NCBI RefSeq assembly: GCF_000151315.2
Contig: NW_011887299.1
Location: forward strand, 50,391 to 114,390
Direction of reading: 5' to 3'
Source: Capsaspora owczarzaki ATCC 30864
Lineage: Eukaryota; Opisthokonta; Filasterea
Length of the DNA: 64,000 nt
The position numbers and the translations under genes were made by a program. Below the pieces are notes generated by a model. That model saw only the letters and a program-made list of their open reading frames with translations, did no database searches and had not been told where the DNA came from. Position 1 is the stretch's first letter. Every line of letters starts with the position of its first letter. Shown one piece after another: positions 655 to 57,426 of this stretch.

Positions 655-3600
655 ATGTCCGAGCAGTTCAAGGTTTGGAATGAATGATTGTTTTATGATT
701 CGCAATCACGAATCTTTTGGTTGTGTTTGTCTGTGAAACAACAACGAAAAAAACAAATCTCCGTTTTCGGATCTGAAAATTGGGGAAACTTTTTGGATCT
801 GGCAACGGAAAATAAACCGCCGCGCCTTTTATGTTTTCGCATTTCGCTGCCATTGTTTGCTTTGACAAAATGGAAGTTTTGCATCAGAAATGAAAGCAAA
901 GTTCGACTCGATCGACGGGTTAAAAAGGGACGACGAAGACAGCGACACAAAAGGAGAGCGAGAGAGAGAGAGAGAGAGAGAAGCGCAACGTCGGTGGTGG
1001 TGGGTGGGGCAACTACTCATCCACTCATCCACTCCCCATGCTCCACCCTTGCTCCTTGTTCGCTCGCACGATTTTTGCAAGGCTTGCTGACCTTGTGTGC
1101 ATGGCCTTGATTTCTGCGCGCTTTTGGTGGCGTTGCGGCTGACCGTGTGCTTTGTTGCAGTGCTTTGCCGACGAGAGCGTGTTCGCATTGCACGAGCTGC
1201 TGCTCGAGCCGCAGGAGACCATCCCGCTGCACTTCCGCCAAGATGCAGGCTTCCGTCTGCCGGCAGACCGATGCGGATGCCAGGGCTACGAAGTCCTGCT
1301 CAAGGTGCGCATCTGTCTGGGTCGCAAATCTCGCGTGTGTTGCCATTCACAAACTCGCAAACTCGATCGTCACGATTCACTCATTGAACATATAAACAGG
1401 ACGGCGGTATTGTCGGCGTCAAGCTTGCATTCAGCGCAAAGGAGCCGCTGGACAATGTGTGGTTTATTCCGCGAACTGCCACAAGTAAAACACACCTCGC
1501 CAAGGTACTTTTCTGAAATGAAAACGGGTGCAAGTGTAGTACACTCCAATGCTCAACTGACTTGCTTTGGATGATCAGGGTGACATGGACATGCACGCCA
1601 TCCACCTGGGAAACTTCAAACCAAGCGAAAGTAACAATGGCTCATTCGAAACCATGTTCAAGTGGAAGTTCCCAATCGTCGCCGATTGCAGCCTGCATGA
1701 AACCAAGATGCCAGGACAAGCAAGCCGCCCGTCGCAGCCGCACGCTTCACTGACGTCGCAGGGGCTTGACAAGCTGGGAAGCACCTCGTTAATGTTAACG
1801 CCAACGTCCGCGCTGTCGGCGGCCTCTTCCCAGCACAGCAAAAGCAGTAGCTCATCCTCCCACCTTCCTCTGACGGCTGGTTCATCCGAAGTGTCACCAC
1901 GGCGCACATCAGATGCAGAGCAGAGCTTTACATTCAACTCACACGCCGATGCGAAATCATCCGTCAGTTCCTCGGATGACTTGTCGCCTTCCTCTCCCTC
2001 CTCCCCGAATGTCAACGACCAGCGCATGAATCTGGTCCGGATGCATGACACTGCCCAGGACCAGCAATGCAGCCTCAGCAAAGCCATCATGGGCCTCGTG
2101 TGTGAAGCGTCCGAATCGGACATTGCCGACGATGACAGTGAAGAGCCTACGAGCCCGAACAGCGATTCAGCCTCGTCCAAGTCCAGAGGGAGTGTGTTTA
2201 GCGTCGTCAAGCAGCGGATATCGACGATTGGCCAGCGTCTGGGAGGAGGAAAAGCATCCAAGTCTACGCGCTCCTTGGGCCCTCCTTCTTCCCCGCCATC
2301 CCGCAAGCTTTCTCTGGTTGAATCCAACGAAGTTGTTGCGACAAACCAGCAAACTGACTTTTCCTCCGAGCTCGGCGATGAAGAGAGCATCACCGAGCTT
2401 GAAGTCGACGATGCCGGCGAGCTGGTTGCCGTCCATGCCTCGTCCCCTCTGCTACTCTCCAAGAAAAACTTTAAGCAGTATCGGCACGACGGTCGTCTGA
2501 CAGTGTCACAGCAGTTCTATGTAAGTTGTTTCGAGTCGAGAAGATTTGGGGGGGGGGTTGTTGTTTGTGGTGTTGTTGTTCTCGTGTCGTTGTTTCGCTC
2601 ACTTGTGTTTTTGAGTGGCCAGATTGTCGAAGGAGGTGGCCGCGTGCTGGCTCGGCTGAGGATGCGATTCATTGCCACTTGTGCGCCAATCCCGCCTCTT
2701 TGCTCGTACTGCCGCAAGAGGTTTGCCAAGTTGCGGTCTTCGTCCAACGAGCAGGCGCGCCTCGCCCCAAAGCATCGGCAAACGGCCGACGTGCTATTTG
2801 TGCGCTCTGATCCCTGGAAGCAATCTCTTTTCTACAGCCTGATGAAGCGAGACGATGCGCAAGTCATCCCATATGTGAAATTGATCGAAATGCGTAAGAA
2901 GAATTTTTTTCCCAACGTTGTTGCCCTTTGTCGTTTGTCTGAGCAGTTTGCTCATGCTCTTTTTGCTCGTTCTTGTGACAGAGGAGCGCATGTTTGAGCA
3001 CCCAAGCGCCCCTCGCGCCGTTGCTGCAACTCCCGACGACATCAATGAGGACTTTGATCCTGAAGAGCATCGCGACTTTCCTTCCGGGATGCCTGCACAT
3101 CAGCGAGTCGGCAAGGTGAGGATGCCATGATTATTTTCTTGTTGTGGTTGTGTCTTCGAGGTGCAAAAGACACTGGTGGTCGCAGCACAATGTGTTTTCT
3201 GTTGTTCTTTACTCTGCTCACTGTTTCCTGTTCCACCCCCCCCCCTCAAATAGTTTTTAAACTTTACCGACTTTGAAACTCAAGTTGCCAAAATGGTCAG
3301 TGTTGAGCAGGCAGACTCGACCAGTTTCTTGGAAGCACGAGACGGCGCAAAGCTCGCATACCTACTTTTCAAAGCCTCGGCCGAACCGGTCGCAATTGTG
3401 CTGTTTATCGCGACATTTGGCTTTGGTAGTGCCTGGTGCTTGGATCTTGCCTCGCGACTTGCGAAAAACAATCCCTTCCACGTCATTGTGCAGTACGAGC
3501 GAGGCCATGGTCCAGCGTAAGTCGAGCTGCTGTTTTTCCCTGCATTTTTGCCTTGAAGTTCTTCCTTGCTGACTTGCCGTGCCACGATGGCAATTTCTCG

Positions 3601-4575
3601 CTCTTTAGTCTCGATCCGAGCGGAGATGCTCCGTCGAAAGAAGCGCTCTGGCGTGACATGCGCACCATGATCCGATACCTGCGGTGGAACTATCCTGCGC
3701 TTCCGCTTGTTGTCGGAGGTCACAGCAACGGGGCTGGCAAGCTACTAAACTACAATTCGTGGAAGTCAAGCCTGCCTGCAGATGCCATCTTTCTGATCAG
3801 TCCATTCCTGCACGAGCTGATGCGCAGCCACAAGCGCAACATGACCAAGAAGGATCACTTCCAAAGAAAGCTAAACTCAATGTCGGGCGGTCGACTCGCC
3901 GGGCACTGGATTGCGCTTGATCTGACCAACCATGTCGCACGAAAGGAAATTGCCGGACTTTGCGTTCCCACGCTCATTTCTGTAAAACGTTCACTGGCGA
4001 GCTGTTTGGTTGGTCGAATGTTCAATAATGCTGAACATTTTCACTGAATTTTTCAACGTGCGCAGGTGAATATGATGGCGGCAGTGCTGATCAAGGATGC
4101 CAAAGCGGCGTTTTCAGCCATCTCGGTTCCCTTTGCGCTGTGGGCGGGTTCCGAGGACGAGCTGTTTCCGTCGAAGGAGGTTCTTGCTGCTGCTGATTAC
4201 TCTCCATCGCAGAGCAAGGTGAGTTTCTTTGCTGCGAGTCGGGGTGATTGTTCTTTTGGTTTGTGTGAATCTCAGTATTGCATTTACATGCAGGTTGCTG
4301 AGGAAATCGAGGGCGGTACGCACGTCGGAATCGTGAATATGATCGAGGACCATCTGGCACCGTGGATTAAGCGCATCATACCACCAATCAAGGCACGTCT
4401 GGACGCCGAGCTTGCCAGGCAGGCTGCCGTGCGTGCCGCTCGACGCGAGCGTGAAACTGCAGAGGCTCCTTCATCCTCGTCACCACCAGCATCGACCAGC
4501 CCTAGCTCTACGAAATTGGCAGAGGAGCGGTCTAGCACACCATCCATTTCAGTTTCGGCAACTGTTGACGTTTAG
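655..4575 (+). CDS. large protein with C-terminal alpha/beta-hydrolase domain
   Basis: Predicted exons: 655-672, 1161-1304, 1400-1504, 1579-2520, 2623-2893, 2982-3115, 3254-3516, 3609-3981, 4066-4218, 4294-4575; all phases agree and give about 894 residues. The first exon is only MSEQFK and is the least certain. Residues about 1-130 form an unrecognised globular region, followed by about 270 residues of Ser-rich disordered sequence. The C-terminal half is an alpha/beta-hydrolase: nucleophile elbow GGHSNGAG (exon at 3609), a likely acid in WAGSEDELF (exon at 4066) and a His in GGTHVGIV (exon at 4294). It ends in a charged, Ser-rich tail. The serine-hydrolase fold is well supported by the ordered triad; the substrate (lipid, ester or peptide) cannot be told. 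There is no signal peptide or membrane segment. A lipase-like or regulatory pseudo-esterase role is possible. Confidence 0.75.
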
Positions 4576-4984
4576 CAACTGATTGTTGGAACAAAAACCA
4601 GACTAGGCTCAAAAATTCTCAGCAAAAACCGCTTTCGACCAGGTTTTCCTCCCGGATACAGGCGGTGATTCAGAAAGCCAGCAAAGCGGAATAAGATACC
4701 GTCAAGCATGAGTTGTAAATGCACGCGAGAGAGACACACACACGATTATGCGCATTCGAGTTAAAAGTACAAATCCATTCGTTACTCTATCGGTTTTTGT
4801 TTGTTCTTTCCATCCAACTCTGAGATTGACTTTATTCATCAGATTTATTAAGCTTTATTCCCTTTGCATATGAAGCCCCCCAAACTTGCATCTTATTGCT
4901 CGCTCAGTCTCAGAAATTTGTTTCCGGCTTTTACGATCGCCGCTACGAAGGGTTCCAACTATCCCCACCACCCCAAATTCAAGC
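4576..4984. other. intergenic region downstream of the hydrolase gene
   Basis: About 410 bp with no plausible gene. It contains a short GA/CA-rich run (4726-4745) and AT-rich sequence, and probably includes the 3'UTR of the hydrolase gene. A solo LTR begins directly after it. Confidence 0.5.
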
Positions 4985-5117
4985 ACATCTGTTACGGTTA
5001 AGACCCCTTGGGTCTAACCCACTCTTGTTATTTTGTATTAAATACGAGAATCCCATCATAACCCATCCATAACCGGCTGTGGGACCTGAGGTGCCAGGGT
5101 TTGCTCGTAACAACATC
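4985..5117. mobile_element. solo LTR of an LTR retrotransposon, with 5-bp target-site duplication
   Basis: The 123-bp unit at 4990-5112 starts TGTTACG and ends CGTAACA, a perfect 7-bp terminal inverted repeat of the TG...CA type. It is flanked on both sides by the same 5 bases, ACATC (4985-4989 and 5113-5117). A short hairpin, AGACCCCTTGGGTCT, lies just inside the left end. A second copy with the same ends and design is at 36097-36229. With no internal region left, it is a fossil made by LTR-LTR recombination. It sits 39 bp before the TM2D3 start codon, so it may contribute to that gene's 5'UTR or promoter. Confidence 0.75.
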
Positions 5118-5155
5118 CAACATTATCATCATTCGTGTAGCTCTATTCAGTGGCA

Positions 5156-6361
5156 ATGTCCAGCCGTCGAAGCCGCTCGATGTTCAGCGACTTGCAGCGC
5201 CAGTCCGTGTCATTCACCAATCTGCCAACGACAACCACAGCTCGCTTCCGACCGCCGCCAAGACCGATGCTTGCTGCGCTTCTATTCGCTGTACTAGCAT
5301 CTGTCATTGCTTGGCAGGCAAGCACCGCCGAGGCCGCGTCGTCCTCGTCGCCGTCGCCGTCTCGCTACGATTTGACCTTCCAGCGATACCAGGTTTGGCA
5401 CCATCCCCCCCCCCCAAGCGATCATGCGTCATGATAGTATTGAGTTGCAGTGAAGTGCATTGCGTGAGCTCACTCTTGGGCTGGGATGACAAACCGCGAA
5501 CGAAATTTGCCCGCTTGGTTGCTCAGATTTGTGTGAATTCAAGTTCGAGAGCTTGCTCAGACTACGAGGCCGTTTGTCTCAATTGCACATTTAACGAGTC
5601 GTGTTCATACGGACTGGCGACGACGGCGAACTGCTCTGTGCCAGAGACAATCCATTGCGCTGTAAGGTTGGCGGTAAAGCGACGAGTCTGTTGGTGGTTG
5701 TCTCACCGTGCATGCCCCATACACACACGCAATCATAGGGTGACCGGATATTCTCGAGAAACCTCACTTGCCAGTACTGCTACCAGTCGCCCGAAGCTGA
5801 CTACGCTTGCAGCGAAAACACGGACTGCGACGCGCAAATAGTCGATGCGACCTACGAAGCTGTCTGCACAATGATGGACGATGTACTGTGCATCGGTACG
5901 TTGCTCTTGTACTTCAAACTGGCGTGTCGCAGCATCTGGGGCATTGTTGTGGCCCGAACGTTTTGCTCATCCGGCCTTGTTGTTGTTGTGGGGCTTTTCT
6001 CTTGCTCCCCAGGCAATCGCCGCTTCAAAAAGAATGTACCATGCGAATGGACAGCTGGCATACGATGGTCGACAGCGCTTTTGTTAAGGTCAGTGTTGTT
6101 TGCAGACCAGAAGGACGAAACGAAACGAAATTGGGGTTGTTCGGTTTTGCTGAATGTCTTGCTCACATTGCTGTTTTTTTGCTCGACAACTCCAGCATCA
6201 CCGTCGGTGGATTTGGCGGCGATCTCTTCTATCTCGGCTACACGGGCTGGGGTCTGTGCAAGCTGTTCACCTTTGGCGGATTGGGCGTCTGGACGATCGT
6301 GGATGTTATTTTGATAGCGACTGGCTATCTCGGCCCAGCCGACAACTCGTTGTACTTGTAG
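5156..6361 (+). CDS. TM2D3: TM2 domain-containing protein 3 (almondex) orthologue
   Basis: Exons 5156-5392, 5527-5661, 5739-5895, 6013-6088 and 6196-6361 join in phase to about 256 residues. A signal sequence lies at about residues 39-60 (MLAALLFAVLASVIAW). The luminal part has the TM2D3 cysteine pattern: CLNCTFNESCSYG, NLTCQYCYQSPEADYAC, then VPCEWTAGIRWSTAL. The C-terminal TM2 domain (GGFGGDLFYLGY...WTIVDVILIATGYLGPAD) has two membrane helices joined by a short turn and ends NSLYL, like animal TM2D3 (recalled ...GPADGSLYI). In animals this family acts with gamma-secretase/Notch and in endolysosomal phagocytosis. Notch itself need not be present in a protist, so the ancestral role is open. 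The start ATG follows the solo LTR closely. Confidence 0.93.
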
Positions 6362-6555
6362 TGCCGACTTGTCTTTTTGAGTCATCCAACTCAGTTCTTG
6401 TTAGTATCAACTTCTTTGTAATTCCGTCAAAAGTAAAATGAATTCAGCTTTTGCCTTCTTGTAGGAAAATGTCAATGCCCTCAGTCTACCTTTGTATTGT
6501 TTTCGTTCTAATCGAGCCTTTGTTTCATACTCTTTTTCCTCACTAAAACTTCACC

Positions 6556-6993
6556 ATGAGCGACAAGGAGCCACCAAAGCGGCCGCCAGTGACCTCGACG
6601 ACGCTCTTCCGGGTGCTCAATCCAGAGCTCTTCCTGCGACCCAACAAATACGTGATGGCGTTCGGACTGGGTGCCCTGACGCTGAGCCTCGGCTTTGTCT
6701 GGTGGCAGTCGGAAGGACAGCTCGGGCCCAACTCGAGGTGCTGATTTTGCATTGGAAAAAATCTTGGCATCGATTGTTTGTAGAGTTGTATGATGAGTAT
6801 TGGGTTTGGGAGGGTAGGGGGGGGGGATTGAATTTAGAGGGAACAATAGGATTGACATTGAATTTCCGCTTTGGCTGACATTTACTTCAATATGTGTTCA
6901 AACAGCGTTCAAGCTGGATATCCTCGCATTTCGGAATATCTGCCAGAAACTGCACCGAACGAAAAGAACAAGAAGGCGTCGCGATGGGACTAG
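6556..6993 (+). CDS. SMIM8: small integral membrane protein 8 (SMIM8) orthologue
   Basis: Two exons, 6556-6737 and 6906-6993, join in phase 2 to an 89-residue protein. The core [20 protein letters not shown], followed by a hydrophobic helix ([16 protein letters not shown]), matches the animal SMIM8 signature TTLFRxxNPELFxxPNKxVMAFG. The last residues, KKASRWD, match the conserved ...TSKWD end, which confirms the second exon. Human SMIM8 is about 97 residues, so this copy is complete. The protein is a single-pass membrane protein; its function is poorly known. Without the splice the frame closes after 62 residues, so a single-exon prediction would miss the conserved end. Confidence 0.92.
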
Positions 6994-7127
6994 GCTGTCA
7001 CTGTGCATTCGCTGCGTCACAAAATAATATCTTAACAAAAGGGACTTGCTTGTACAATGCTGCGGCAAGTCATAACAAGTGCATATATATTCAACAAAAC
7101 GTAACAACAAAGTAAGACAGCCAACAG

Positions 7128-8334
7128 CTAAGAAGCTTTCAGCTTGCTGGCAGAGGCAGCCAGCGCGGCAGAGTGCTCGAGATGCGTGTCGTGCGAGGCA
7201 GGCGCGTCCCAGTTAAACTCAATGCCGACAAACAAAAAGTCGAGCCAAAAGTCGGCAACAGCATAGTTGTGCTTCATGGTGCCCTTGTGGTGGTAGTAGT
7301 GCATGTCGCGCAGCTTTTCGAAAATGCCAAACGTGCGGCCCTCCATCCAAAAGTCGCGCTGGTGGAATCCCATATGCATGATATCGGCAAGTTTGAGTTC
7401 CTGTGAGTGGCAGGGCGGTGCAGCATGGGGGATGGCAGGGCAGCGGGGGCGAGCCGAAAAATTTACGAAACGAACAAGTCAGCACACTGCCAACGCCAAC
7501 AATCACGACGCGCAGCTTCCAAAAAACAAACAAAAAAACCTCACAATCATGCCCGTCAGAATGGCAGTCAGGACGGTGGCGAGGGAGCGGTCGTCGGTGA
7601 ATTGCAAGAGAATCAGAGGCGACAGAATGATGGCGCCGATGTACGCCTGCGAGTTGTCTTCCTTTGCGTTTTCGTACGTCTCGCTGATGAACTTGGTCGG
7701 CGGGTAGTCGTTGATGTGGTGTCCGATGTGAGCTCTGCAGCAAGAAGCAAGAAGAAGAACGAGATTTGCAGGATCAGTAATCCGTCCTCCATTCCCCGGG
7801 ACATGCATCTCAATTCAAAAGGCGCTCTTTGTCAATATACACGGTTAGTTACCTGTACCACCATCCGAGGTACTTTCCTTCGAGGCGAACGTGTCCAATC
7901 CAGTGGGTAATGACGGCGAGAATGTTGGTCATGTACCAGCCGCCAGTGACCATCCACCACGGCACTTGCGGGAACTGCCAAGACAGGGAAACACAATTGA
8001 GACATGTTGACATGCACCGAGGGTTTTTCTTTTCTCAGATTCTCAGATTTTAGTCTGCAATCTGCAATCTGGGGTTTGACGCCTTACAGCAGAGTGCACG
8101 GCGAGCGACGTTGCGTTGATGAAGAACATCCACCAGACAAAGAGGCCGAGGATGAACGACTTTGGCACTGGCTTTGCATTGTACCTGTGATCAAAAGGGG
8201 AGAACAGTGCAGGGTGATAGAACGAGCAGAGAGCGAAGTGTGGAGCGACCGTTCCGCCGCAGTATCAGATCAGTTCAGCATGCAGCAGTGAGTGTTATAG
8301 TGGAGTGATAGTGTCGTGGAACATAGAGGCACAT

Positions 8335-43894: not shown

Positions 43895-46800
43895 TCAATC
43901 GTGGCATGAATCAACCACAAGATGCACAACGACCAGCACAAGATGGGCCACAGAAAGCGCCACCACATACACCACTTTTGGCGCAAACACACTCCAAATG
44001 AAGAGGTGGTGACGTTGAAGAAGAACAGAGGTCACACTCGCGCAGACGTGCAGGGCGTGGAAGACCATCACGCAGTGGATGGTAGATCTGCGAGAGTCGG
44101 TCGAGCGGGCACTCGCCAGAGCCAATAGCACGGAAATCATCATCGGACCGAAGGTGCTTGCAAACAACGCCAGCCCAGGTCCCACCAGGCTGTCAGTGTC
44201 AAAGCCAATGCTGGAGCGCGCAACATCCAATGTGCCGATGGCGTTCGAATTGCCACACGCATAGTAGAACGCATACCCAAGCACGACATGTCCAATGCAT
44301 CGAGTCATGCTGTCCTTCACCTGATGGAGAGCGAGGAGCAACGCGAGAAAGCATGCAATCACAATCAGGTTGGCTGGTCGTTGGTGCAGAACGAGCATGT
44401 GCGTGAGAAACTCGGCACTAATCTCATACAATATGGCACACTTGTTGGGACTGCTCGTCGATTGCGCGCGAGCTGGCAGCAGCAGGCTCCCCAACACCAG
44501 TCCAACTGACTTGACGCAAGCCAACAGCCGGAGCTTGTGGATGGTCCCGGACACGTGCTGGGGAGCAAATGCCTGGATCAAGATCAGCCCAAAAATGCCC
44601 ACAGTCGTCACCCAGTGTGACAGATGGTGAAGCCTCGTCGAAATCCCTCTGAGATTTAAAAGTCGCCACATCACTGTGACAAGGAGCAATCCTGCGACAA
44701 CCTGACTGCAGAGAAGCACAGGCCAATTTTGGGGATTGTGCAGCTCGCTTGCTAGGTCTGGCACTTGCAACCACTTGACGCCAGTCTGGTTGATGCTTCG
44801 GCCAATCTTGAGCAGGGCCATCGCAAAGGCTAGCCGGACGATCGAAATTCTAGAATTGGATCGACCGAGCAGAACGAGGAGAATGCCGGCGAGCCAGTAC
44901 CATGTTTGATGCTCTTCCTCGATAAATGAACTCGAAAAGAGGCTGAGGGCATGTGCTGCAAGAAGGTGTGACGCACAACTGCGAATCCAGCCCTGGTCTG
45001 CTGGGAATGGGTCTGCTGGAGGCACCACAAAGGCCAGCCTTTCAAAGACGACTGCAGCTGCAAACAAGCTTGCCGGCACCCACAGCGACGCGTGGAAGGA
45101 GAACGCTGCGATTTGCTGAACGGAGAGCTCCGGGAAACACTCGGCCAACACGGCAAGAACTGGGAGTGCTGCAATCACCTTCCAGAGCAGCGGCGCACTA
45201 GAAATGGAACGAATCGATGCCAGTGCAACAACACTGATCGTCAAGCAAGCCATGGCAAGATTCGGAAGGTTGGATTGTCGCGACTCAGCGGCCAAGGCAT
45301 CAGAAGCATCGCGTGCCAAGAATCTCAGAGCTTGCAGTGTGCATTCACAAGACTTTAATGAAAGGAGATCGTCCTGGGTTGGAATGCCGTAAAGTTCACG
45401 CCTGGCAGAATCGAGCAGAGAGGTGCTGTTGGAAAAGTGCGTGGAGCAGTCTGAATTCCAGTCCTCATTCTGCAGGGCCAGGTCAATATCCTTCGCAGTG
45501 CGGCCAAGGGAGACATAAAGCTGGCGTAGAATACTTATTTGACCGCGAATGAGACGCCGTAGCCTTGGCCGGAGATCAGAGGTGAAACACAACTCCCGAT
45601 CCGAGTACTGTCCGCCCAACAACACCGACTCGATCAGAACACCGACGTTGCCGGATGGTACAGGAAGGCCCACGGCCAGCGAGACCGTCGCGGCAATGTC
45701 AATCTGGCGAATGTGCTGGCGCTGATCGTTGGTGAAGGAAACTCCGCGCCATCTCGCAGCTTCTTCCAAGTTGCCCTGATTAGCTTGCAGCCCAGATCCT
45801 AAAAAGATGGCGGCCGTTTCTGTCTCCAGCGATGAGGAGCCTCCATGGTTCCCTCGCTCATTGGTGCCATGGTCACCGCACACGACCAGCAATGTTCGCG
45901 TGTTTTGTCGTGCATCCTCTCCCAGCAGTAGTTGGTGCAGGTCAAACAGCATGTCGTCTATTTCATCGAGCTTCGGGCCAAGCGTTGGGCTCGATGGCCC
46001 CTCGGCGTGGCAGATGTGGTCTACGCCGAGAAAGTGCAGCACAATGCAGCGCCAGCCGTCGTCCGAAAACGCCGATGCCGACGCGGGTACTTGGGTATTT
46101 CGCTGAATGTTGTGTGCATCTAGACTCGAATGCCCTGTATCGTACAGACCCAGCACCGCAGGCACGATGTGTCGAGTCACATTTTGGTCCACCTCCACAA
46201 AATCGTGCACAACAAACGAGGTTGTCCCGTCGTGCAGGCGAAAGTGCCGCGGGTACAGCCGAAGCCACGTGTCGTCTCCAAAAAAGTAGGCCTTTCTGCC
46301 AGCCTCCACCAGCGCATCCACCCAGCTGGCAGGCAGCGGCGGGAGGAGCTTGGCAGATTCGAGCGTTGGCATTGTCGCTTGTTGCTCCAATCCGTTGCTC
46401 GTCGACAGCGACCCGCCAAAATTAAACGCGAGATCCAGAAATCCAGGGATGCTGCCTGTTGTTAGCGCCTTGATGCGCGGCAGCGTGACTGTCGGCGTCT
46501 GTGCATGGGCAACGAACGGCAGCGACCGGTTGGAGGACTGGATGAGTTGACGGAATCGAGCATGATTGGCCCGCCCAGGCTCCCAACGAGCACTGGATGC
46601 GTCACTTGAGCTCCCTGCGTGGTCGGTTGGCTCGCCAGCTTGAGGCAAACGGCGGTACGGCAGCATAAAGTCGGCGCGCAGTGCGTCAATCACGACAAAG
46701 ACCATCCGATCGAACGCCGCAGGACGGTCGCCGCCATCCCAGTTCATGCAGTCTGGCTCGTCGTCAGCACAGCGCAGGGTCGGGTGGGCGAACGGATCGG

Positions 46801-46990
46801 CAGACCAGCGGCCTGCTGGCGACGGCGATGGCAGCTGGAACAAGCCGGTCGCAAACAGAGTCATCCCGAGCGCCAGCAACGCAGCGCGCACTAGCAGCTG
46901 AGCTTTGCTCGGGATGAATGCATGAGATGGATTGCGCGGCGGATGGGACGCGCCGGAGCGGAGCAGCCGCATCGAAGCAATCTCAGCCAT
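43895..46990 (-). CDS. PIGG: GPI ethanolamine phosphate transferase 2 (PIG-G/GPI7/LAS21)
   Basis: One uninterrupted frame of 1031 residues, apparently intronless, unlike its neighbours. An N-terminal signal anchor (about residues 30-50) precedes an alkaline-phosphatase-fold catalytic domain: FVVIDALRADF, TPTVTLPRIKALTTGSIPGF (with the Thr nucleophile region), FFGDDTWLRLYPRHF, HDGTTSFVVHDFVEVDQNVT, HFLGVDHICHAEGPSSP and VVCGDHGTNERGNHGG. These match PIG-G rather than PIG-N or PIG-O. About a dozen hydrophobic segments follow. The enzyme adds ethanolamine phosphate to the second mannose of the GPI precursor in the ER lumen. Confidence 0.93.
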   Translation of the reverse strand: MAEIASMRLLRSGASHPPRNPSHAFIPSKAQLLVRAALLALGMTLFATGLFQLPSPSPAGRWSADPFAHPTLRCADDEPDCMNWDGGDRPAAFDRMVFVVIDALRADFMLPYRRLPQAGEPTDHAGSSSDASSARWEPGRANHARFRQLIQSSNRSLPFVAHAQTPTVTLPRIKALTTGSIPGFLDLAFNFGGSLSTSNGLEQQATMPTLESAKLLPPLPASWVDALVEAGRKAYFFGDDTWLRLYPRHFRLHDGTTSFVVHDFVEVDQNVTRHIVPAVLGLYDTGHSSLDAHNIQRNTQVPASASAFSDDGWRCIVLHFLGVDHICHAEGPSSPTLGPKLDEIDDMLFDLHQLLLGEDARQNTRTLLVVCGDHGTNERGNHGGSSSLETETAAIFLGSGLQANQGNLEEAARWRGVSFTNDQRQHIRQIDIAATVSLAVGLPVPSGNVGVLIESVLLGGQYSDRELCFTSDLRPRLRRLIRGQISILRQLYVSLGRTAKDIDLALQNEDWNSDCSTHFSNSTSLLDSARRELYGIPTQDDLLSLKSCECTLQALRFLARDASDALAAESRQSNLPNLAMACLTISVVALASIRSISSAPLLWKVIAALPVLAVLAECFPELSVQQIAAFSFHASLWVPASLFAAAVVFERLAFVVPPADPFPADQGWIRSCASHLLAAHALSLFSSSFIEEEHQTWYWLAGILLVLLGRSNSRISIVRLAFAMALLKIGRSINQTGVKWLQVPDLASELHNPQNWPVLLCSQVVAGLLLVTVMWRLLNLRGISTRLHHLSHWVTTVGIFGLILIQAFAPQHVSGTIHKLRLLACVKSVGLVLGSLLLPARAQSTSSPNKCAILYEISAEFLTHMLVLHQRPANLIVIACFLALLLALHQVKDSMTRCIGHVVLGYAFYYACGNSNAIGTLDVARSSIGFDTDSLVGPGLALFASTFGPMMISVLLALASARSTDSRRSTIHCVMVFHALHVCASVTSVLLQRHHLFIWSVFAPKVVYVVALSVAHLVLVVVHLVVDSCHD

Positions 46991-47235
46991 TGTTTCTCAG
47001 CATCCAAGATCAGGCAAGGTCAAATTTGGAGGTCCCAATCTGCCAGATCTGGAAGAGAAAGGACTGAACAGCATGAGTGCAACAAGCATGCAAAACCCGA
47101 TTGAATGCATTTGAATGAGAGACGACTCAAACAACAACAAATCCCAAAAACAAAACACATTCAATACTCAATCGTACAGAAACAGATCTACAGCAATACA
47201 ACAAACACACTTTCAAACACGCGCACAATCATGAT
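46991..47235. other. spacer between PIGG start and the giant STAND gene stop
   Basis: 245 bp that must hold the PIGG promoter (minus strand). AAC/CAA-rich; nothing else recognisable. Confidence 0.4.
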
Positions 47236-50200
47236 TCATTGAATGGAGCAGGCGGTGGCGCGAGCGAGCAACCCTTCGGTTTGGACGAGCGGTGGCGAAG
47301 GACTGGCTGCCACGCGAACCACGCGCCAGACTGCTGCAGATGGCGGCTGGCCATGGGGCACGGGTGCGGTGGCACTAGCAGCTTCGATGGGGGTCGAAGA
47401 AAGCGTCGCCAGACCTGCAGAGGAGGCAGACGAAGCGGAAGATGCAGAGCACGGCGCCACGGGAGCGGATTGCAGCAGCGCGCCGTCCAGACCGCAGGAG
47501 TACAGCATGCCGCTCTCGCCGTGGAAGGCAACGGACGTGACAATGTCGGTATGTGCCCTCAGGACGGCCAGGCATCGGCCGCTGCCGTTGGCGCGAGCGT
47601 TCGAGATATTCCGCGTGTGCGGAGGCGGCATGGCCCAGATGCGAACGGTAGTATCGGCGCTGCCAGTCGCAGCAACCATGCCGTTCGGGGCAAAACTAAT
47701 GCAAGTGACGGGGCCATCGTGGCCTCGGAAGGTCAGCAGAGGGGTTGGAGGCTTCTTTTGGGCAAGCAGCGCAGCCGAAAGCTGCAGCTGACGCATCGAA
47801 AGCAGCGAGGGCACGACATGGACGGCAACCGTGCGGTACCCGCTCGATGCAACGGTGGCTGCGAGGTACTGGCTGCAGCTGCTCAGCTCTGCCACCCTGC
47901 CTCCGATGCCGGCCAACTGAAGGATGGACTGACCCGAGATCAAGTCCCAGAACACGACAGTTGCAGAGGGGCTTTCGCTCGACGACACGAGAACAAACCG
48001 GCCTCCATCGTCATTGTCGACCAGAGCAGTGTTTTGAGAAAAGCACACACTGAGTACCGGGCCCTCGTGCCCACGGTCGTCCAAGGCCAAATCAGCTCCA
48101 GGGATTGGGGCTGCTGTTCGCGCAATTTTGCCAAAATCGTACTTGACGCGTCCAGTCTCGGTACTCCACACGGTCACCCGGCCTTCTGCTTCGCCGCATG
48201 CCATGAACTTGCCGTCGCGGCCAAAGCTCACCGAGCGAACCAGGCGCTCGCAACCCTGGATGAGCTTGGCTTCTTGAGTCTTCGTTGGCAGCGTTTGCCA
48301 CATTTTGAGCACCTGGCCGGGCTGAAGCGCGCTGGTGTTTTGCTCGATGGTAAGCCCTGCAGCAGCAACCAGATTGCCGAGCGGAGACATGGCGACAGAG
48401 TGCACGGGGAATGACTGGCCCAACGTTGCCAGCAACGCCAATGACGACGCATCCCAGACTTTGATACTTCCAAACGTCTCACCGGTGACGAGGAGATTGG
48501 CGGATGCGCAAACCGACAGGCATGACAATCCACCACATTGGGTGCGGGAAAGTTCGCGGTCGGAAGGCAGTTCGACATCCCAAAGGAGCACCCGTTTGCT
48601 AAACGCGACGGCGACGGATGAGCAGTCGTCGGAAAATCCGACCACGTGTCCGCCTTCAATTTGACGGTGTGCTACCGTATGGCCAGCATCAAGGTCAAAC
48701 AGGGTGACCTGAGTTGCGCCGCTGCAAGCGAGAACACTGCTTTGCGTCGCCAGTTTCAGCGAAATACCACGCGAGGAAGGCAATCCCAGTGCAGCAGAGG
48801 CGAGCATGCCAGCTCCAAGCTGGTCAAACTGGCCGCGGCTCAAGTCAAAGGTATACGACTGCTCGAGTTGCGCGCCACGATACGCATGAGGCAGCTGTTT
48901 GCTGCTGCTGCTGCTGCTGCTGGTCGACAGGTGCGAAGTGATGGCAAACACCAGGACGAGATGGCGATCTGTGGTGCATGCAATCCACTTCTGGTTGCTG
49001 GTCGCAGCGACAATGTGCGCATGAGCCACAACATGCTCGCGTGCCAGCACACGCTCCTCCACAGACCACAGCTGCACGGCTTTGGTGGTTGCAGCGACCA
49101 CGAGCTCTCCTTGCGCTCCAATCATGTTTGCGTGCAACACAGGCTTGGTTCCCAGCGCCTTCCTGCGGGCCACAATGAAAGCCTCGCTGGAAGGGACCGA
49201 TTCGAGCAAACTGGTGCGTGATCCTGACAGAGAGCGAGCAGCCTCCTGAGCCAACGGCATCAGGCAGCTTTGTGGAACGCAGCCTTGTCGGCCACCGAAC
49301 GAAATCTGCCAAAAAAAAAGAACAGGGGAAGAAAATATTGCGGAAGCAACGACCAGGAGTGAGGTTGTTGTTTGTTGTTGTTGTTTTGGCAACGCGACCA
49401 ACTGACAACTTACCCACCACCAGTCCGGGTTGGACTGATCCAGTACTTGCACTTCATCTCCTTCGTGAATGGTCAACTCGTACTCGCGCTGGGCAATAAA
49501 CGAGGTTGCAGTGATGGCACGAGAGGTTGCAGCCTCCGATTCTGAAACGACAAGCATATCAAAAGATGAGGCACGGCCAAACCACGCAATGGCAACTTCG
49601 CTTTTCCAAAAAAAACCCGCCCCATCAATACACACCTTGTGCAGATCCAGGGCCAAAAACAACGGACGCATCGCTTGAGAGAAGAGCGTTGTGCCAGATT
49701 CGAATCTGCCCAGAAGCATCGCCAGAGACAAGATGCGCATCGCCAACAAACATCATCGACGTCACTTTGTGCTGGTGCCCCACGAGGACGCGACGGAAGA
49801 AGCTGGAACGACGAATGTCGTGCAACACGATCGCGAAATTGGGCGCGCCTGCCAGTTCGCCGTCCACGGCTCCAGCCTCGGTTTGCTCGAGTCCGGCGAC
49901 AGCAGCGACCGAGCCAGTGGCGGACAGCACCGGCTGAGCCACCAAGCTCTGCCCAGCGGACGAGTCGGCGGGCTCGGTTGCAGCGTCTCCAAAGAGCGAC
50001 TTCCACCAGGCTGGAGGGTCGCTGAACTGCCACTCGTCGACCAACTTGGCGGAAGCGCTCGCTGCAGTGAGTGAGCTTAGCGCGCCGGACGAGCTCAGAG
50101 AGGACAATGAGGACGACGATAACGGCGCGGAGAGCGGAGATGCAACGGTTTTAGAAACATCGCGAGTCGCGAGCTCAGAGCGCATGACGGACCGGACGTC

Positions 50201-53200
50201 CCAGCGAGAGGCACGCAGGCTCGAGTCAATGACGGTCAAGAGCAACCCATCCTGAGAGAAGGCTGCTGCGAGCGCCTCGCCGCTCAAGTTGGACACCAGC
50301 GGCAAGTGTTCCACTGGGCCTGCTGGCACGAGGGCGCCCTTGCTGCCCAAATCGCGTGTTTGGGCACCAGCAAGCGTCGCGGCGCTCAAATCGCTCCCAG
50401 AAACATCCGCTTCCACGAGCATGGCATGGGTCAAGTTGGCATCCGGCGCTTGCAGATTTTGCAGCGCAGCTCGATTGAACGAGCAGCCGGCCGCGGTGAG
50501 AACTGACATTGCGTTGGCCACCGAGTGATCCGCGACAGAAGCGTCGCTCGTCAGTCCAATGGCAGCGGATTTGCGCGCTCGTTCGACAATCTGTTTAAAC
50601 TGGGCTTCCACCGACGCATCATTGCGGACGCGGTCGGCAAACAGAGAGACCATGTTGAGATCGTCCGTAAAGCTCGGATAAGTGCGGAAGCGGCTGACAA
50701 ACTCGTCAGTGTCGGGAGCGGCCACAATGAAGCGCACAGCAAAGTAGTCCAACAACGCCGACGGCGCGAAAGTGTACAGGTCCGTTGTTTCGCTTGCCTC
50801 GCTTGAAGTGGCAGCATCAAAGAGGTTCCAAGTCGAAGCGGAGGATGTCGCTGTTGGCTCCGACGACTTGCCCTTGCTACTGCCAGGCATGGCCTCCAGA
50901 GCCGAGTCCAACACGCTGGACGCGTTGCGCTCTACGCGCTCGATCGAGATTGGCGAACATTCGAGCAGAAAGGCCGCTCGCTGGTCTTGGCGGTTGAGGA
51001 GCAGGCGCCAGACAGCAGGATTGGCGCGAGGGCGCTTCGGGAAGAATGGCGCAGCGGTCAGCTGTTGGCGGAACAGTTCACCGGCAATCTCGCTGCATGC
51101 ATCCAGCACTTCGGCCACAACATTCGAGATGCCCTCGGGAATGGCGGCTGTCGATCGCAACCGAGCCATCCGGTGATGAATGTACTGCAGCACGTACACA
51201 TCCACGAGCTCGGTGCGCGTAATGGGTGATGAATGCAGGCTGAGTGCAGCGTGCCGCTCGAACTGCTCGAGCAGCGTTGGAAACGCCTCCGTCCACATGG
51301 CAATGCCGGAAACGGTTTGGGTTACGACTGCAAACCCCTTCAAGGTGCTGAAGGCTTGCAAAAGCATCGAGGCATCCCAATCCGCAGGAGGCGTGTCGGC
51401 GAGCGCCGCCTCCACCGCGCGCGACGCAACGGACGGGCGGGAAGGAGTGAGAGCAGCTGCTCGGCGGACGGGCGCTCCATCAATGGATACGGATGTCAGA
51501 CTTGCAGCTCGTGTGAGGGGAGCGGGTGTGCCGGGCGAGGTGCTGATCGCCACAACCGCGGCAGCAGCCGCAGCAACAGGACTATGCGACAGAAGCAGAT
51601 TGGACGACGAGGCGTCACCATGCAGCCGCGAAACGACAGAGCTCGACGATTTGCGTCGCGAAACTGCGCGAGAAGCCACGGGCGAAGAGCCCGGACTGGC
51701 AGAAACCAAATCGGCCAATCCCGAGCGGTGTTGACGTGCCGATCCTCACGGACGCAATAGCTGCCGCAGCAGTCGTCGCAGCAGCAGACGCATGGCTGGA
51801 CGAGGTGCGCTGCTGGGATGTCTTGTTGAGAATGACTCCCAAGCAGCTCTTGTAGTTGGAATTGTCAGCGGCAAGCCACTTGGAAACAAAGGCCAGCTTG
51901 TTCTCTGCCGTCAACGGCTGGATGTGGCGGACAGTCAGGCTCGCGGATGGACTGAACAGCTGCAAGCGACGCTGCTCAATGCGAGCGCAGTCGTTCGGGC
52001 GGGCGGCAAGCACAGTGTTGCAACGCCACTGCTGCAAGTTCAGAGACTCCAACCCGCGCAGATTGGCAACGCAGTCAATCAAGAACGTAAAGCCGCACGT
52101 GAGCTGGAGTTCTCTGACATCAGCAGGCCCCAAGAGCGTGCCAGGTGTGGAGAGGCGTTGCTGGATGGCTCGCTCGAGAGGACCTAGTTCCGTTTGGCTT
52201 TCAAGAACATCCGACATGGAGACGTAGACGGGAATGTTCTTGACGTCTGACCACTGGGCCCAGAGTTCCAGCTCGAGTTGTCGAAGCAGTGTCGTTTTGC
52301 CACTCCCAGCCACTCCGCCAACAACGAGAGCAATGAGGTCGGAAGTCGCGTTGGCCAGCGAGTTTGCAGATTCAAGCTGCTGCAGGAGTGCGTCCAGCGC
52401 GGGAGTTTCCACATCACCTACCGCAGCGGAAACGGCAACAGCAACTGCCGGCGACGACGAGGTGCTTTTTGGCGAATGACCAGCACCCACCTCGACAGCC
52501 AATGTGGGCGAGACCTGCGCCGGGCGATCGCCCAGCCGCAACGCGATGGGATTCGGCGCCACGCGCGATTGCTGCAGCTCTTGTGCGCGCACCTTTTGCA
52601 CGCGCGCAAGCGGGTTGTTTGTCACGCGGGAGAACAACCGCGGCAGGGCGGCATAGTGAGCCTGCGCACTTTGCAGAGTCTGCATGGTGCCGAACGACGC
52701 ATACGACAACCAAGGAGTGCCTGAGATGGCTTCAGTGGCTGAAGCAAACGCATCGTTGATCTGAACGGTACTGGTAGCGAGCAGGTAACAAAACTCCATG
52801 ACGAAATAGTCGGAGGCGATGCCGTCGCACTGTCCTTGCATGCCAATCACTGCGTCGACACCAGCCGTTTCATCATCCTCCGGTTGTGTCTGGACAAAGA
52901 GGCGCCAGGCACCTTCAACAGAGTAGGACGATGGCAGCACCACGCATTGCACCTTGTCCGTGTTGTCGCGAACAACTCTGGCCAAGTGTTCGTACAGCGT
53001 CAGGCGCGCAGCCATGTCGGCGGGCTGGACGACTGCGCCAGGAACAGAAAACGCAACCACCTGTGGTCGGAAGGAGAGAAGAGAGTAGCGGATTTGGTCC
53101 AGGCGGTCGACATTGACATTCATTCCTGCAATGGCTTCCGGCGAGCTGTGGGGAATCTCCATCACAGTCCAGTGGGGAAGCTTTCGCGTAGCCTCGTCTT

Positions 53201-55622
53201 CATCCGACTCCATCGCAAGAGTATTCTCGGCAGCAGCCTTCAAGAGCGTCGCGTTGCAGATGAAATTCAACACCTTGAAATCTGTAGCATTGGAGTTGAA
53301 GCGCATCACAAGCGTATGAAAAGTTCGGGGGGAAAAGAAGTGAGGACAAGCTGCTCACAAACGAATTGATGTGACATGCAAAACGGTCGGCTCACTAGTG
53401 GCGCGCCGAAACACTGGGCGAGGTTTGGCAGCGGTGGACGACCAAGCCTTGTGAACTGGGAGGGGGGACAGCAAAACACAAAAGCACAAAAACATATCAT
53501 TGTCAGTGGAACAAAGTGATATGGGGAAATGCGAGATGAGCTCGGCTGGGGCTGGACTACTCACGTGTTGGCAACGGTGGCTTGTGTGCCAGTTGAAACC
53601 ACGGTCGAGCACGCGCAGAGACGCTTTCCAGAGCTTGTGCAAACAATGCAGGATACGAAATGTACGCGTCAGAATCTTGAGCACGAAACAGATTCTGAAG
53701 GAGCGTCGTCGTGAAGCTTAGAACGTCGTCTTGGCCAACGGCGCAGTGCATCGCGTCGATACAGAACGACGACGCATTCAATGCAATCACGCACTGAGCA
53801 CCCCAATGGCAGAAGGCGCTGGCAAGACCATATGGGATGGGCGACAAAAAGATCAGACATTGGGCAGTGCATTCGTATCGGTCCTGATGTGCCTGCTGAA
53901 TGATTGCGTTGACAGAGTCCTCGTGCTCGTCCAGCCGACCGCGACCCGCCACGACCACGACAGGAGCGGCGTTGCAAGCCTTCAGGAAGTCGTCCGCTGT
54001 TGAAGGAAAAGCTTGGAGCGGTTGACTTCGGACGCGAAGACTGGAGAGGCAACAAAAAAGGAAGAAAGCGTCAGCAAAGGGGGAAATCATAACGTTGTCC
54101 GAACAAGCAAACGAAAAGGAAACACTAATAACGCTGATTCTCGCGTACTCGTCACTTTGCTCAAACGCTGCAAGCAACGGCTGTAGATGCCGAAAGGATG
54201 AATTGGCTCCAGTCGTCACTCCAAACGCCAAGTCCAATGCCACAAGTCGGAATCGATCCACCAGCACGTCTACAAGGTTTGAGGTACAAAGCACGAGCAA
54301 GCAATGAATTTTAAAAAAGCCAAACACACAAAGTGAACCCAAACAGACTTCAGTTGAATGTCGTTTTGTTGCTGCTTACCGTGTCGAGTTGAACCAGTGG
54401 TTGTCGGAAAGCGTGTCTGGAAGGCAAACCACGTCGATAGCGCGAGGAGGTCCTCGTTCGGCATCCAACCACGCGCCGAAGGCACCAGCGGCACTGGAGC
54501 ATCGTAAACGCCGTCTGGGACGGGTGTGCGAATCGCTCCATCAGCACTGGCAGGTGTGTTGCTCGTTGCCCAGCGTGCTGGCACAGACGGCTTCGCATAC
54601 TGAGCAGCATCAGCGGCGGTGGACGAGGGGAGTGGTCGCGGCACCGTTTGCACTGTCGCGTAGAGCGCCTCTTCCTCAACGTCGTGGCCGCCACTGCCGG
54701 GTTGCACCCGGAGTGGTGCAGTTGATGCGGATGCGTCGGCTACATGATCCACAGGGACGGAGTAGTTGGACGCCGCCAGGTGACTTTGAAGGACGGCCAG
54801 CTTGCTGAACGGGACGGGGCCTGGCGTGCTACGAACTGGCTCGACGACAATCGCATCCACTGGCTCTGAAATCAAGGACACGGCCGGGCTGCTGGGGGCC
54901 TCCACATCCAAGTACCGACGCGGCGAATACGCAGAACCAAGCTGATCTTCGAGGTCGGATCGATCTCCCGGGCTGTCTATGCTGTTTGGTGACAAGTCTT
55001 GGTCGTCTGTCATGCAAGATCGGTGCAATCATGAGCTCGTATATCCGGCAAACAAAAAGCACTGCATGAGAAAACGCTTGACGATCCTTACTCGTGTCTT
55101 CCGCTGAGACGCTCATCGCAGCATGGTTGGCAGCACTTCCAGACGGTTGAGTATGGCTCGGATGATCGTCCTCGATTGAGGCACTGCTATTCACAGCATT
55201 GGCAGGCGCTGGTGGGTTGGACTTGCGACGCGGTGGAAGCGCCGGTTTGGCTTTGCTTGGCTTCTGAGACTGGATCTGAGCATAGGTATCATCATCACCA
55301 ACATTATCATCAACATCATCATTGTGGTCTTGACTTGATGCATTGTTGGTGAAGCGATGATCAGCATCAGTATGGCGATCGCTGTGGACGGCTGTTGCTT
55401 CAGTAGGATCACTTGACTGCGCGGCGATGACCGGGATTGGCGGAAGTGCTCGTCGCGCCAGCTCACGACCGCCGCCCGACACGGCGTTATCATCATCGTG
55501 ATTATCGTGACCATCATGACCATCAGCGTGACTGGATTGAAGCGAGGCAGTCGAGGCGGACTCGCTGGGACGGCGTCGGCGATTCTTCTGCGCTGCGACG
55601 CCTGCAATCTGTGCCGCAGTTG

Positions 55623-55654
<32 letters not shown>

Positions 55655-55950
55655 GCTGCGTGCTGGTGAGGTGGCTGCTCGTAGATGACTGCATCAGCAT
55701 TATCAGCATTGGCTGCTGCTGGCTGCTGTTGGGGGGATCGGTGCAGAACAACGTCTGCTTCAATGTACTCGCTCACAAGTCCGTCCGCGCCACCATTCAG
55801 CTCAGTTCGCTCAGTTTGCTCAGTTTTCTCAGTCTGCTGTTGCTGTTGCTGTTGGGTTGGAGGCGGCGGTGGTGCTGGTCGGCGCGTCGTCGGGGCTGCA
55901 ATCCGATCCACTTCAGCATACTCGCCCAGATTCAAATCTGAAGACTCCAT
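47236..55950 (-). CDS. giant STAND-type protein: Tyr-motif tail, two CHAT-like domains, NACHT, pentapeptide repeats, WD40 with inserted SH3
   Basis: Predicted exons: 55092-55950, 54380-55006, 54149-54269, 53565-54040, 53396-53455, 53281 to about 51755, about 51720-49636, 49414-49541, 47236-49305; about 2650 residues. Order: a disordered tail (1-495) with PxxP and YxxP/YxxV motifs; CHAT-like regions near 495-700 and 720-900 (second has VIGMQGQCDGIASDYF); NACHT with P-loop VVGGVAGSGKTTLL and IPVYVSMSD; pentapeptide repeats (LQAPDANLTHAMLVEADVSG); a WD repeat (HLVSGDASGQIRIW); SH3 (YELTIHEGDEVQVL...DWWW...GRQGCVP); then about ten WD repeats, the last ones GHDGPVTCISFAPNGMVAAT and HTDIVTSVAFHG. 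Such NTPases usually form ligand-triggered signalling oligomers. All junctions agree in phase except the one near 51755-51720, where the frame changes and I could not choose a convincing intron; two genes split there is possible but unlikely, since NACHT would lose its C-terminal part. Confidence 0.8.
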
Positions 55951-56260: not shown

Positions 56261-57426
56261 ATGGCACTCACACTCGATCTCTCGCGGCGCATTCTAAACT
56301 TCCTCGCGTCATCGAAATCGCCACCAGGCATCAATCCAGCGCGCATGCAACGCATTGCTCAGGTACAACATCCGACAATACAAGAATCTGAGAATTTTTT
56401 CCCGCGCAAATTTTTGAAGCCTTGTTCTCAGAATGTCTGTGTTGTTTTCAGGTTGTTGGCTCGCGGTCGTCGCTACGGCTTGTGCTCGAGAACTGCATGG
56501 ATCCACACAATGGTACAGCGCTTGCCAATGCAGCAGGACGGAGACCCGAGAGGCGAGGAAGGGCCAAAGTGTGCAAACTGAACACTCACGTCGCGTTGAA
56601 AACATGCTCTGCAGCGTCCGCGTGCATCCGTACCGCCGAGTCCTTTGGCATTGCACACGTCCATGTCATTGGTAAAAACCATCATGAATCTCAGATGGTG
56701 GGACGGGGGGGGGAGTTCGGAGTCGGGGTCGAATTCTCAAATCACTCTTCCTCGTGTTGCACAGAGTCGTTCAGCACGTTTCGACCATCGGAAACGGTCG
56801 CGAGCGGAGCACATACATGGACGCTGGTGCATCACCATCCAAGCGTGGAGCACTGCCGCGCGGCACTCGCAGAGGCCAACTGCGCGCTCGTGGCGTCAGA
56901 CCTGTCTGGCAATGCAACCGAACTGCTGCACGGCGTTCGAAGCTGGCTCCCATCACTCTCGACATTAACAACAGAGCAAAGAAGAGCATTGACGAATGTG
57001 CTGGACGAGCGTGCAGCCATCGCCGCGATACGTTTGACGCCAGATTCAGTCCTCAAGCATGAGGCGGCTGCTCCGCCAACGCCTCCAGCCACGCCAATCG
57101 TCAAAGCGCACGCTTCGCCTGTATTAAAACCTGTGCAATCGCTTGCGCTCGCTTTTGGAAACGAATCGAGGGGAGTTTCGCGTTTGCTCGTCAACTCATC
57201 CGACGCGACATTCTTCCTGAAAACGGTCGGCTTCACACAGAGCCTCAACTTGTCATGTGCCGTTGCAGCCACACTGGGCACGCTTCAGGGAATCAACTTG
57301 CTCGATGGATTGCCCATGTCGCAGGACGAGCAGACCATTTTGCAAGTACGATTTTTGCTTTCACATGGTTCGCGCACCATGACTGAGCTGTTGAGGCGGG
57401 CTGGCATCGAAGTGCCAGGCCTGTAG
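56261..57426 (+). CDS. SpoU/TrmH-family RNA 2'-O-methyltransferase
   Basis: Exons 56261-56362, 56452-56512, 56615-56671 and 56765-57426 join in phase to about 293 residues. The three SPOUT motifs are present: motif 1 DPHNASACIRTAESFG (assembled across an intron), motif 2 LALAFGNESRGVSRLL and motif 3 SLNLSCAVAATLGTL. The N-terminal helix (MALTLDLSRRILNFLASS...QRIAQVVGSRSSLRLVLENC) resembles TrmH-type tRNA Gm18 methyltransferases. The enzyme should use S-adenosylmethionine to methylate ribose in tRNA or rRNA; the knotted fold requires a dimer. An insert of about 50 residues between motifs 1 and 2 (near 56900-57110) is unusual. Mitochondrial or cytosolic location is not evident. Confidence 0.88.

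Follow-up and report, generated by a model that had tools for sequence, protein, structure and literature searches.

Fungal CHAT-NLRs carry an N-terminal CHAT domain, a central NTPase and WD40-, ANK- or TPR-type repeats at the C terminus, as set out in the available parts of PMC10197012, PMC12881547, and PMC9815663. Caspase-domain proteins of cyanobacteria with NACHT and 13 or 15 WD40 repeats appear in excerpts of PMC2853523. For tyrosine-kinase signaling, the sections of PMC5043372 at hand report BCAR1 (p130Cas) orthologues in metazoans only, binding of pYxxP by the SH2 domain of choanoflagellate Crk, and YxxP-repeat membrane proteins in choanoflagellates and Capsaspora. As of 2016, the proteins that Src and Abl phosphorylated before animals arose were described there as unknown. 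Here, we analyzed a gene at 47236-55950 on the minus strand of a 64,000-nucleotide stretch (the window) of Capsaspora owczarzaki ATCC 30864, which is part of contig C8 in a genome of 27,456,641 bases and 29 contigs. Like the fungal proteins, its product has a CHAT domain ahead of an NTPase and C-terminal repeats. We tentatively read it, at somewhat less than an even chance, as an NLR-type STAND switch of a unicellular holozoan whose output would be a p130Cas-like docking tail and not proteolysis.

Architecture of the predicted protein

Judged from its open frames and domain matches, the gene appears to encode a single very large protein in one chain. From the N to the C terminus, a tyrosine-motif tail is followed by a tentative CHAT-like segment, a dead CHAT, NACHT, a short pentapeptide block and WD40 repeats, between which lies an SH3 domain. 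This is the NLR-type order of an N-terminal effector module, a central NTPase and C-terminal repeats, and the dead CHAT occupies the place of the active CHAT proteases in fungal and bacterial relatives. The features are as follows.

47236..55950, minus strand: whole gene by the splice model, nine exons and about 2,640 codons, from an ATG at 55950 to a stop ending at 47236
55950-55092, 55006-54380, 54269-54149, 54040-53565, 53455-53396, 53281-51750, 51695-49636, 49541-49414 and 49305-47236, minus strand: the exons
54380..55950, minus strand: low-complexity tail, residues 1-495 (exons 55950-55092 and 55006-54380), disorder judged by eye
55432..55452, minus strand: class I SH3-ligand-like RALPPIP, pattern match
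55222..55245, minus strand: class II SH3-ligand-like PALPPRRK, pattern match
53565..54269, minus strand: residues 496-694 (exons 54269-54149 and 54040-53565), tentatively a first segment of the CHAT-like (caspase-fold) type
52722..53105, minus strand: CHAT core, residues 774-901, from a profile of bacterial CHATs and a model, catalytic His/Cys replaced by Pro/Ser
52179..52328, minus strand: NACHT stretch scored by Pfam
52059..52091, minus strand: Walker B region FLIDCVAN, by eye against MLDGLDE of a cyanobacterial CHAT-NACHT protein (L109)
50729..50776, minus strand: YTFAPSALLDYFAVRF, resembling by eye the FxH..F.EYFA motif that ends NACHT modules (compare FLHRFFLEYFA in L109)
50363..50482, minus strand: single pentapeptide block of about 40 residues, Pfam
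49688..49789, minus strand: WD40 repeat before the SH3 domain, end of exon 7 (19.5 bits with exon 7 alone, cut-off 27)
49252..49521, minus strand: SH3 domain, exons 8 and 9, split by the intron 49413-49306
47239..49251, minus strand: WD40 repeats after the SH3 domain

A preliminary description of this DNA had placed the gene at these coordinates, and both the ATG at 55950 and the stop at 47236 on the minus strand were recovered. It had also called the exons frame-consistent, which held for seven joints and failed at 51750/51695, where the frame changes. The introns at these seven joints are of the GT-AG type, keep the frame, and are 85 to 114 nucleotides long with a guanine-plus-cytosine (GC) content of 0.39 to 0.50.

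The CHAT core scored 31.4 bits with a profile of 14 bacterial CHATs, compared with at most 8.2 in 2,000 shuffles, and a fold of the caspase/separase type was found. Pro and Ser stand in place of the catalytic His and Cys, which 42 of 42 bacterial rows retain. With both residues lost, the domain should not be taken for an active protease. The CHAT proposed earlier was therefore recovered by this profile, with its catalytic dyad lost, and not by Pfam (PF12770) or NCBIfam, neither of which found CHAT in the two CHAT segments at E 10. When exon 6 was searched against plasmids by tblastn at E 10, the 20 records were all weak, aligned with the NTPase part from query position 297 onward, and left CHAT unmatched. 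Within the genome, exon 6 matched only itself at E 1.

Residues 496-694 may tentatively be a first CHAT-like copy, judging from a model in which the order of strands and helices, unaligned, resembles that of the second CHAT. In a second look with VIA-align, separase and SAVED-CHAT were among the weak structural matches of this segment. It scored -1.7 bits with the CHAT profile, a value reached by 490 of 2,000 shuffles, and did not clearly resemble the second copy, 41 of 400 shuffles reaching the same score. As to the structure prediction suggested in the preliminary description, Foldseek gave no match at E 0.001 for the models of either CHAT segment, and CHAT, separase and caspase chains were listed by VIA-align only.

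The remaining modules had been proposed for profile searches with hidden Markov models, and in Pfam the SH3, WD40 and pentapeptide parts exceeded their cut-offs while NACHT came near its own (matches of the joined exons are from the 25 of 43 families shown). NACHT scored 21.5 bits with the joined exons and 27.8 when frame neighbors were counted, against a cut-off of 26.7. Its Walker A motif GVAGSGKT (GxxGxGK[ST]; residues 1037-1044, 52293-52316, minus strand) is intact. The best PDB match of the NACHT segment was 5irl/5irm, weak at E 0.13 and labeled an uncharacterized protein, which we take to be NOD2. PADLOC returned weak matches only.

The pentapeptide block scored 26.1 bits (cut-off 20.2), or 21.8 with exon 7 alone, and WD40 scored 107.3 bits over four stretches (cut-off 27). 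A small home-made WD40 profile marked eight units, most of them weak, in the second half, and no blade number is claimed. The SH3 domain scored 38.2 bits as SH3_2 (cut-off 21.8) and 30.7 as SH3_1 (cut-off 22.9); its nearest PDB matches were Grb2 (E 7.8e-10) and neutrophil cytosol factor 1. A query of the SH3-WD40 part against the genome at E 0.01 found no paralogue: besides itself it matched seven places, six within the SH3-bearing first 96 query residues and one in a TEP1-like WD40 frame.

The tyrosine-motif tail was confirmed as an excess of motifs over chance, and its location was corrected from the C terminus to the N terminus (residues 1-495). Its 10 tyrosines stand in YAEV, YIEA, YEQP, YAQI, YSPR, YLDV, YSVP, YATV, YAKP and YDAP, so that 4/10 are YxxP and 4/10 YxxV/I. 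Eight of the 10 have P, V, I or L at +3 (shuffle p 0.0001), compared with 34/153 in six other stretches of the same genome (binomial p 1.7e-4), which were chosen by convenience and include the remainder of the protein itself. For the four YxxP, the binomial p was 4.1e-4 and the shuffle p 0.013. RALPPIP and PALPPRRK are SH3-ligand motifs of class I and class II; the tail holds four class I patterns (shuffle p 0.0003) and two of class II (p 0.05). All of these p values are somewhat flattering, as the motif class was picked after inspection and the shuffles ignore proline runs. In the genome, 34 SH2 matches were counted exon by exon, and the tyrosine-kinase-like family, which also covers other kinases, gave at least 176 matches with 134 of 545 candidates scored; both counts are in keeping with a filasterean. 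A Capsaspora phosphoproteome study has reportedly been published; our literature search did not find it. Capsaspora is also reported to be open to transfection and genome editing (PMC6001378 and PMC9170242).

Proposed function and rival explanations

With the CHAT dyad lost, proteolysis is an unlikely output, and the tail becomes the most obvious one left. The favored switch would work as follows. The WD40 part may sense a cue, and ATP binding by NACHT would allow the protein to assemble into an oligomer. The output would then be a clustering of the N-terminal tails, each acting like the substrate domain of p130Cas/BCAR1. The PxxP ligands of the tail could recruit Src- or Abl-type kinases through the SH3 domains of these kinases, and phosphorylation of the YxxP and YxxV/I tyrosines would allow SH2 adaptors such as Crk to dock. 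The dead CHAT may help in assembly or bind partners, and the SH3 domain between WD40 repeats may be a binding site or a structural insert.

The preliminary description had suggested an NTPase switch wired to phosphotyrosine inputs. The architecture, the tail motifs and a genome with SH2 and tyrosine-kinase-like matches agree with the general idea; the wiring through SH3 became uncertain, its groove being eroded, and phosphorylation itself is inferred.

A further step, which we regard as doubtful, would make the protein a phosphotyrosine-output NLR, that is, a pre-animal STAND switch of the immune type that swapped its caspase-like effector for a p130Cas-like tail, with ATP-driven assembly converting a sensed cue straight into signaling of the Src/Abl-Crk type.

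Animals use innate-immune STAND switches and tyrosine-kinase signaling together, and we know of no protein outside animals that joins the two in one chain. Finding one in a unicellular organism so closely related to animals would provide a direct and testable case. If true, it would also be a candidate for the pre-animal substrates of Src/Abl-type kinases, a question open in 2016 according to the part of PMC5043372 cited above. In addition, a eukaryotic NLR-like protein whose effector position is taken by a dead CHAT would broaden the bacterial pseudo-protease theme found in the accessible portion of PMC7159879.

Some observations weigh against the switch with a docking output. In the Walker B region FLIDCVAN, the first Asp is kept and, by eye, the second acidic residue of DGLDE is lost. 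In the SH3 groove, Phe, Trp and Pro are kept, and relative to Grb2 the first groove Tyr has become Thr and Asn-Tyr has become Ser-Cys; because these groove residues are lost, canonical PxxP binding is doubtful. At the eighth junction, 51750/51695, which lies in the NACHT region, the reading frame changes. No usual intron bridging this break was found among GT-AG pairs with donors at 51860-51701 and a length of at least 40: the obvious GTGAGG...CAG intron stays in the wrong frame, and the donors of the frame-restoring pairs listed are all GTC or GTT. A frame-restoring candidate of 58 nucleotides has a GC content of 0.60, and GC at third codon positions, compared between the two frames, gave no position for the break. 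The junction would be either a non-standard intron or else a small sequence error or mutation. Since it lies inside one NACHT module, it speaks for one gene.

The rival that survives best is an NLR-type receptor for defense or cell death, in which the dead CHAT would recruit or regulate a separate active protease and the tail would be minor or due to chance. Fungal NLRs encoded near gasdermin genes have CHAT as an effector domain, according to the available text of PMC9815663, PMC12881547, and PMC10197012, and inactive caspase-like effectors are common in bacterial conflict systems, at about 70% in one class in the excerpt of PMC7159879. An analogy is offered by cFLIP, which regulates caspases and whose inactive caspase domain is named in part of PMC8195603. 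However, neither the gasdermin family nor Pfam CHAT was matched in the genome at E 1, a search that remote members of both would escape; the tail motifs are above baseline; and the neighbor at 43895-46996 looks like a housekeeping gene (PIGO/PIGG). In general, we consider such a receptor rather unlikely.

Still less probable is a scaffold that is constitutively present in the cytoplasm, comparable to the WD40 and SH3 protein Jouberin or to further large proteins with WD40 repeats; its NACHT and CHAT would be non-switching relics. The fully intact Walker A motif is at odds with it, as is the order of NTPase and repeats, which matches described sensor proteins. It is nevertheless consistent with the degenerate Walker B (by eye) and CHAT sites, the partial loss of the SH3 groove, and the presence of Jouberin among the SH3 matches.

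That two adjacent genes, or one gene with an inactivating frameshift, were joined on paper at 51750/51695 would agree with the frame change and with the failure to find a usual bridging intron, but is improbable, as the joint falls within one NACHT module with the P-loop before it and the LDYFA motif after it, the two long open frames run one behind the other on that strand and leave no space for an intergenic region, the other joints are all clean, the upstream half of 1,225 residues and the downstream half of 1,418 translate without an internal stop, and one 1,865-residue frame elsewhere in the genome (L113, whose kinship is only possible) holds both pentapeptide and propeller.

A possible cousin and the neighboring genes

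L113 (contig C8, 1329000-1338999; frames 2-1759 and 1992-7589) encodes a second large pentapeptide protein; at E 0.001, the genome has no pentapeptide match outside this locus and the main gene. Its pentapeptide part scored 36.6 bits and shares the 1,865-residue frame with weak propeller matches; the first frame had no Pfam match. Read by eye as CHAT-CHAT-STAND, L113 was considered as a paralogue of the same architecture and rejected, with only the pentapeptide alignment above chance (0 of 400 shuffles as high). Shuffles scored as high in 5/400 cases for the arm, 14/400 for CHAT1, 20/400 for NACHT (26/400 with roles swapped), 389/400 for CHAT2, 45/100 for the propeller and 950/5,000 for the supposed P-loop, and the CHAT profile gave at most 0.7 bits on L113. 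From its frames, L113 may be a distant cousin that has its domains in the same order. As a guess, it might be an eroded partner of the main protein; pairs of active and eroded STAND proteins are described for bacteria in the accessible part of PMC8195603.

The gene has close neighbors. Downstream of it on the same strand, the long frame at 43895-46996 matches the membrane region of PIGO/PIGG and is probably a glycosylphosphatidylinositol ethanolamine phosphate transferase. On the plus strand, 56261-57426 has the look, by eye, of the start of a divergent gene for a SpoU/TrmH-type RNA methyltransferase.

Comparison with known systems

The fungal CHAT-NLRs share the general order of modules with the Capsaspora protein. 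Their CHAT is described as a protease in the sources available in part, whereas the Capsaspora CHAT is without His and Cys. No SH3, pentapeptide or tyrosine tail is named in those portions, and SH3 and pentapeptide occur 0 times in the text of PMC9815663 at hand.

In the cyanobacterial CHAT-NTPase fusions (CHAT-AAA_35, CHAT-TIR-AAA_35 and CHAT-NACHT), a similar CHAT subfamily also precedes the NTPase. Among 10 cyanobacterial CHAT proteins, picked for long frames from 80 loci and thus not a fair sample, six had a STAND-like NTPase (five AAA_35, which we presume to be STAND-like, and one NACHT below the cut-off), two had pentapeptides and two TPR. Unlike the Capsaspora protein, these fusions have active-site residues in 42/42 CHAT rows, no SH3 among the listed families and no introns. 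The CHAT-NACHT protein of L109 (4086-6599 of a contig from a metagenome-assembled genome of Pseudanabaenales) has, by eye, several hydrophobic and perhaps membrane-spanning segments past the NTPase. At L093 (3186-5552) and L108 (2035-4317), cyanobacterial pentapeptide repeats stand ahead of CHAT, the same modules being recombined.

BCAR1/p130Cas, which consists of an SH3 domain, a YxxP substrate domain and a FAT-like domain, resembles the Capsaspora protein in its YxxP tyrosines, its SH3-ligand motifs and an SH3 domain in the chain. The human protein has 15 YxxP, compared with 4 in the Capsaspora protein, which in turn carries an NTPase and WD40. The SH3 domain of BCAR1 is N-terminal, whereas that of the Capsaspora protein lies in the second half, past the first WD40 repeat and far from the tail.

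Three other NACHT loci of the genome, named by eye, are TEP1-like, NPHP3-like and NB-ARC-like. The TEP1-like and NPHP3-like loci also have WD40-like or TPR-like parts by eye, but no CHAT, SH3 or tyrosine tail could be seen in them and they had no pentapeptide match. L014 (contig C2, 1755500-1765499, minus strand) holds a frame of more than 3,100 residues with NACHT and WD40 and, by eye, the look of an intron-poor TEP1 relative. Jouberin (AHI1), whose SH3 is among the PDB matches of the Capsaspora SH3, combines WD40 and SH3 in one chain and, to our knowledge, is without NACHT or CHAT.

In the literature searched, supplements not being searchable, no paper named CHAT, NACHT, WD40, pentapeptide and STAND together, none of those with at least three of NACHT, SH3, WD40 and CHAT named all four, and neither a description of this protein nor a CHAT-NLR or CHAT-NTPase fusion with such a tail and SH3 was recognized. 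This agrees with the earlier claim that no described protein has all of these modules, although the fungal CHAT-NLRs and the cyanobacterial caspase-NACHT-WD40 proteins had already been described. An architecture of the NLR/STAND kind is known, and its predicted combination with a tyrosine tail and an SH3 domain would be new among the literature searched.
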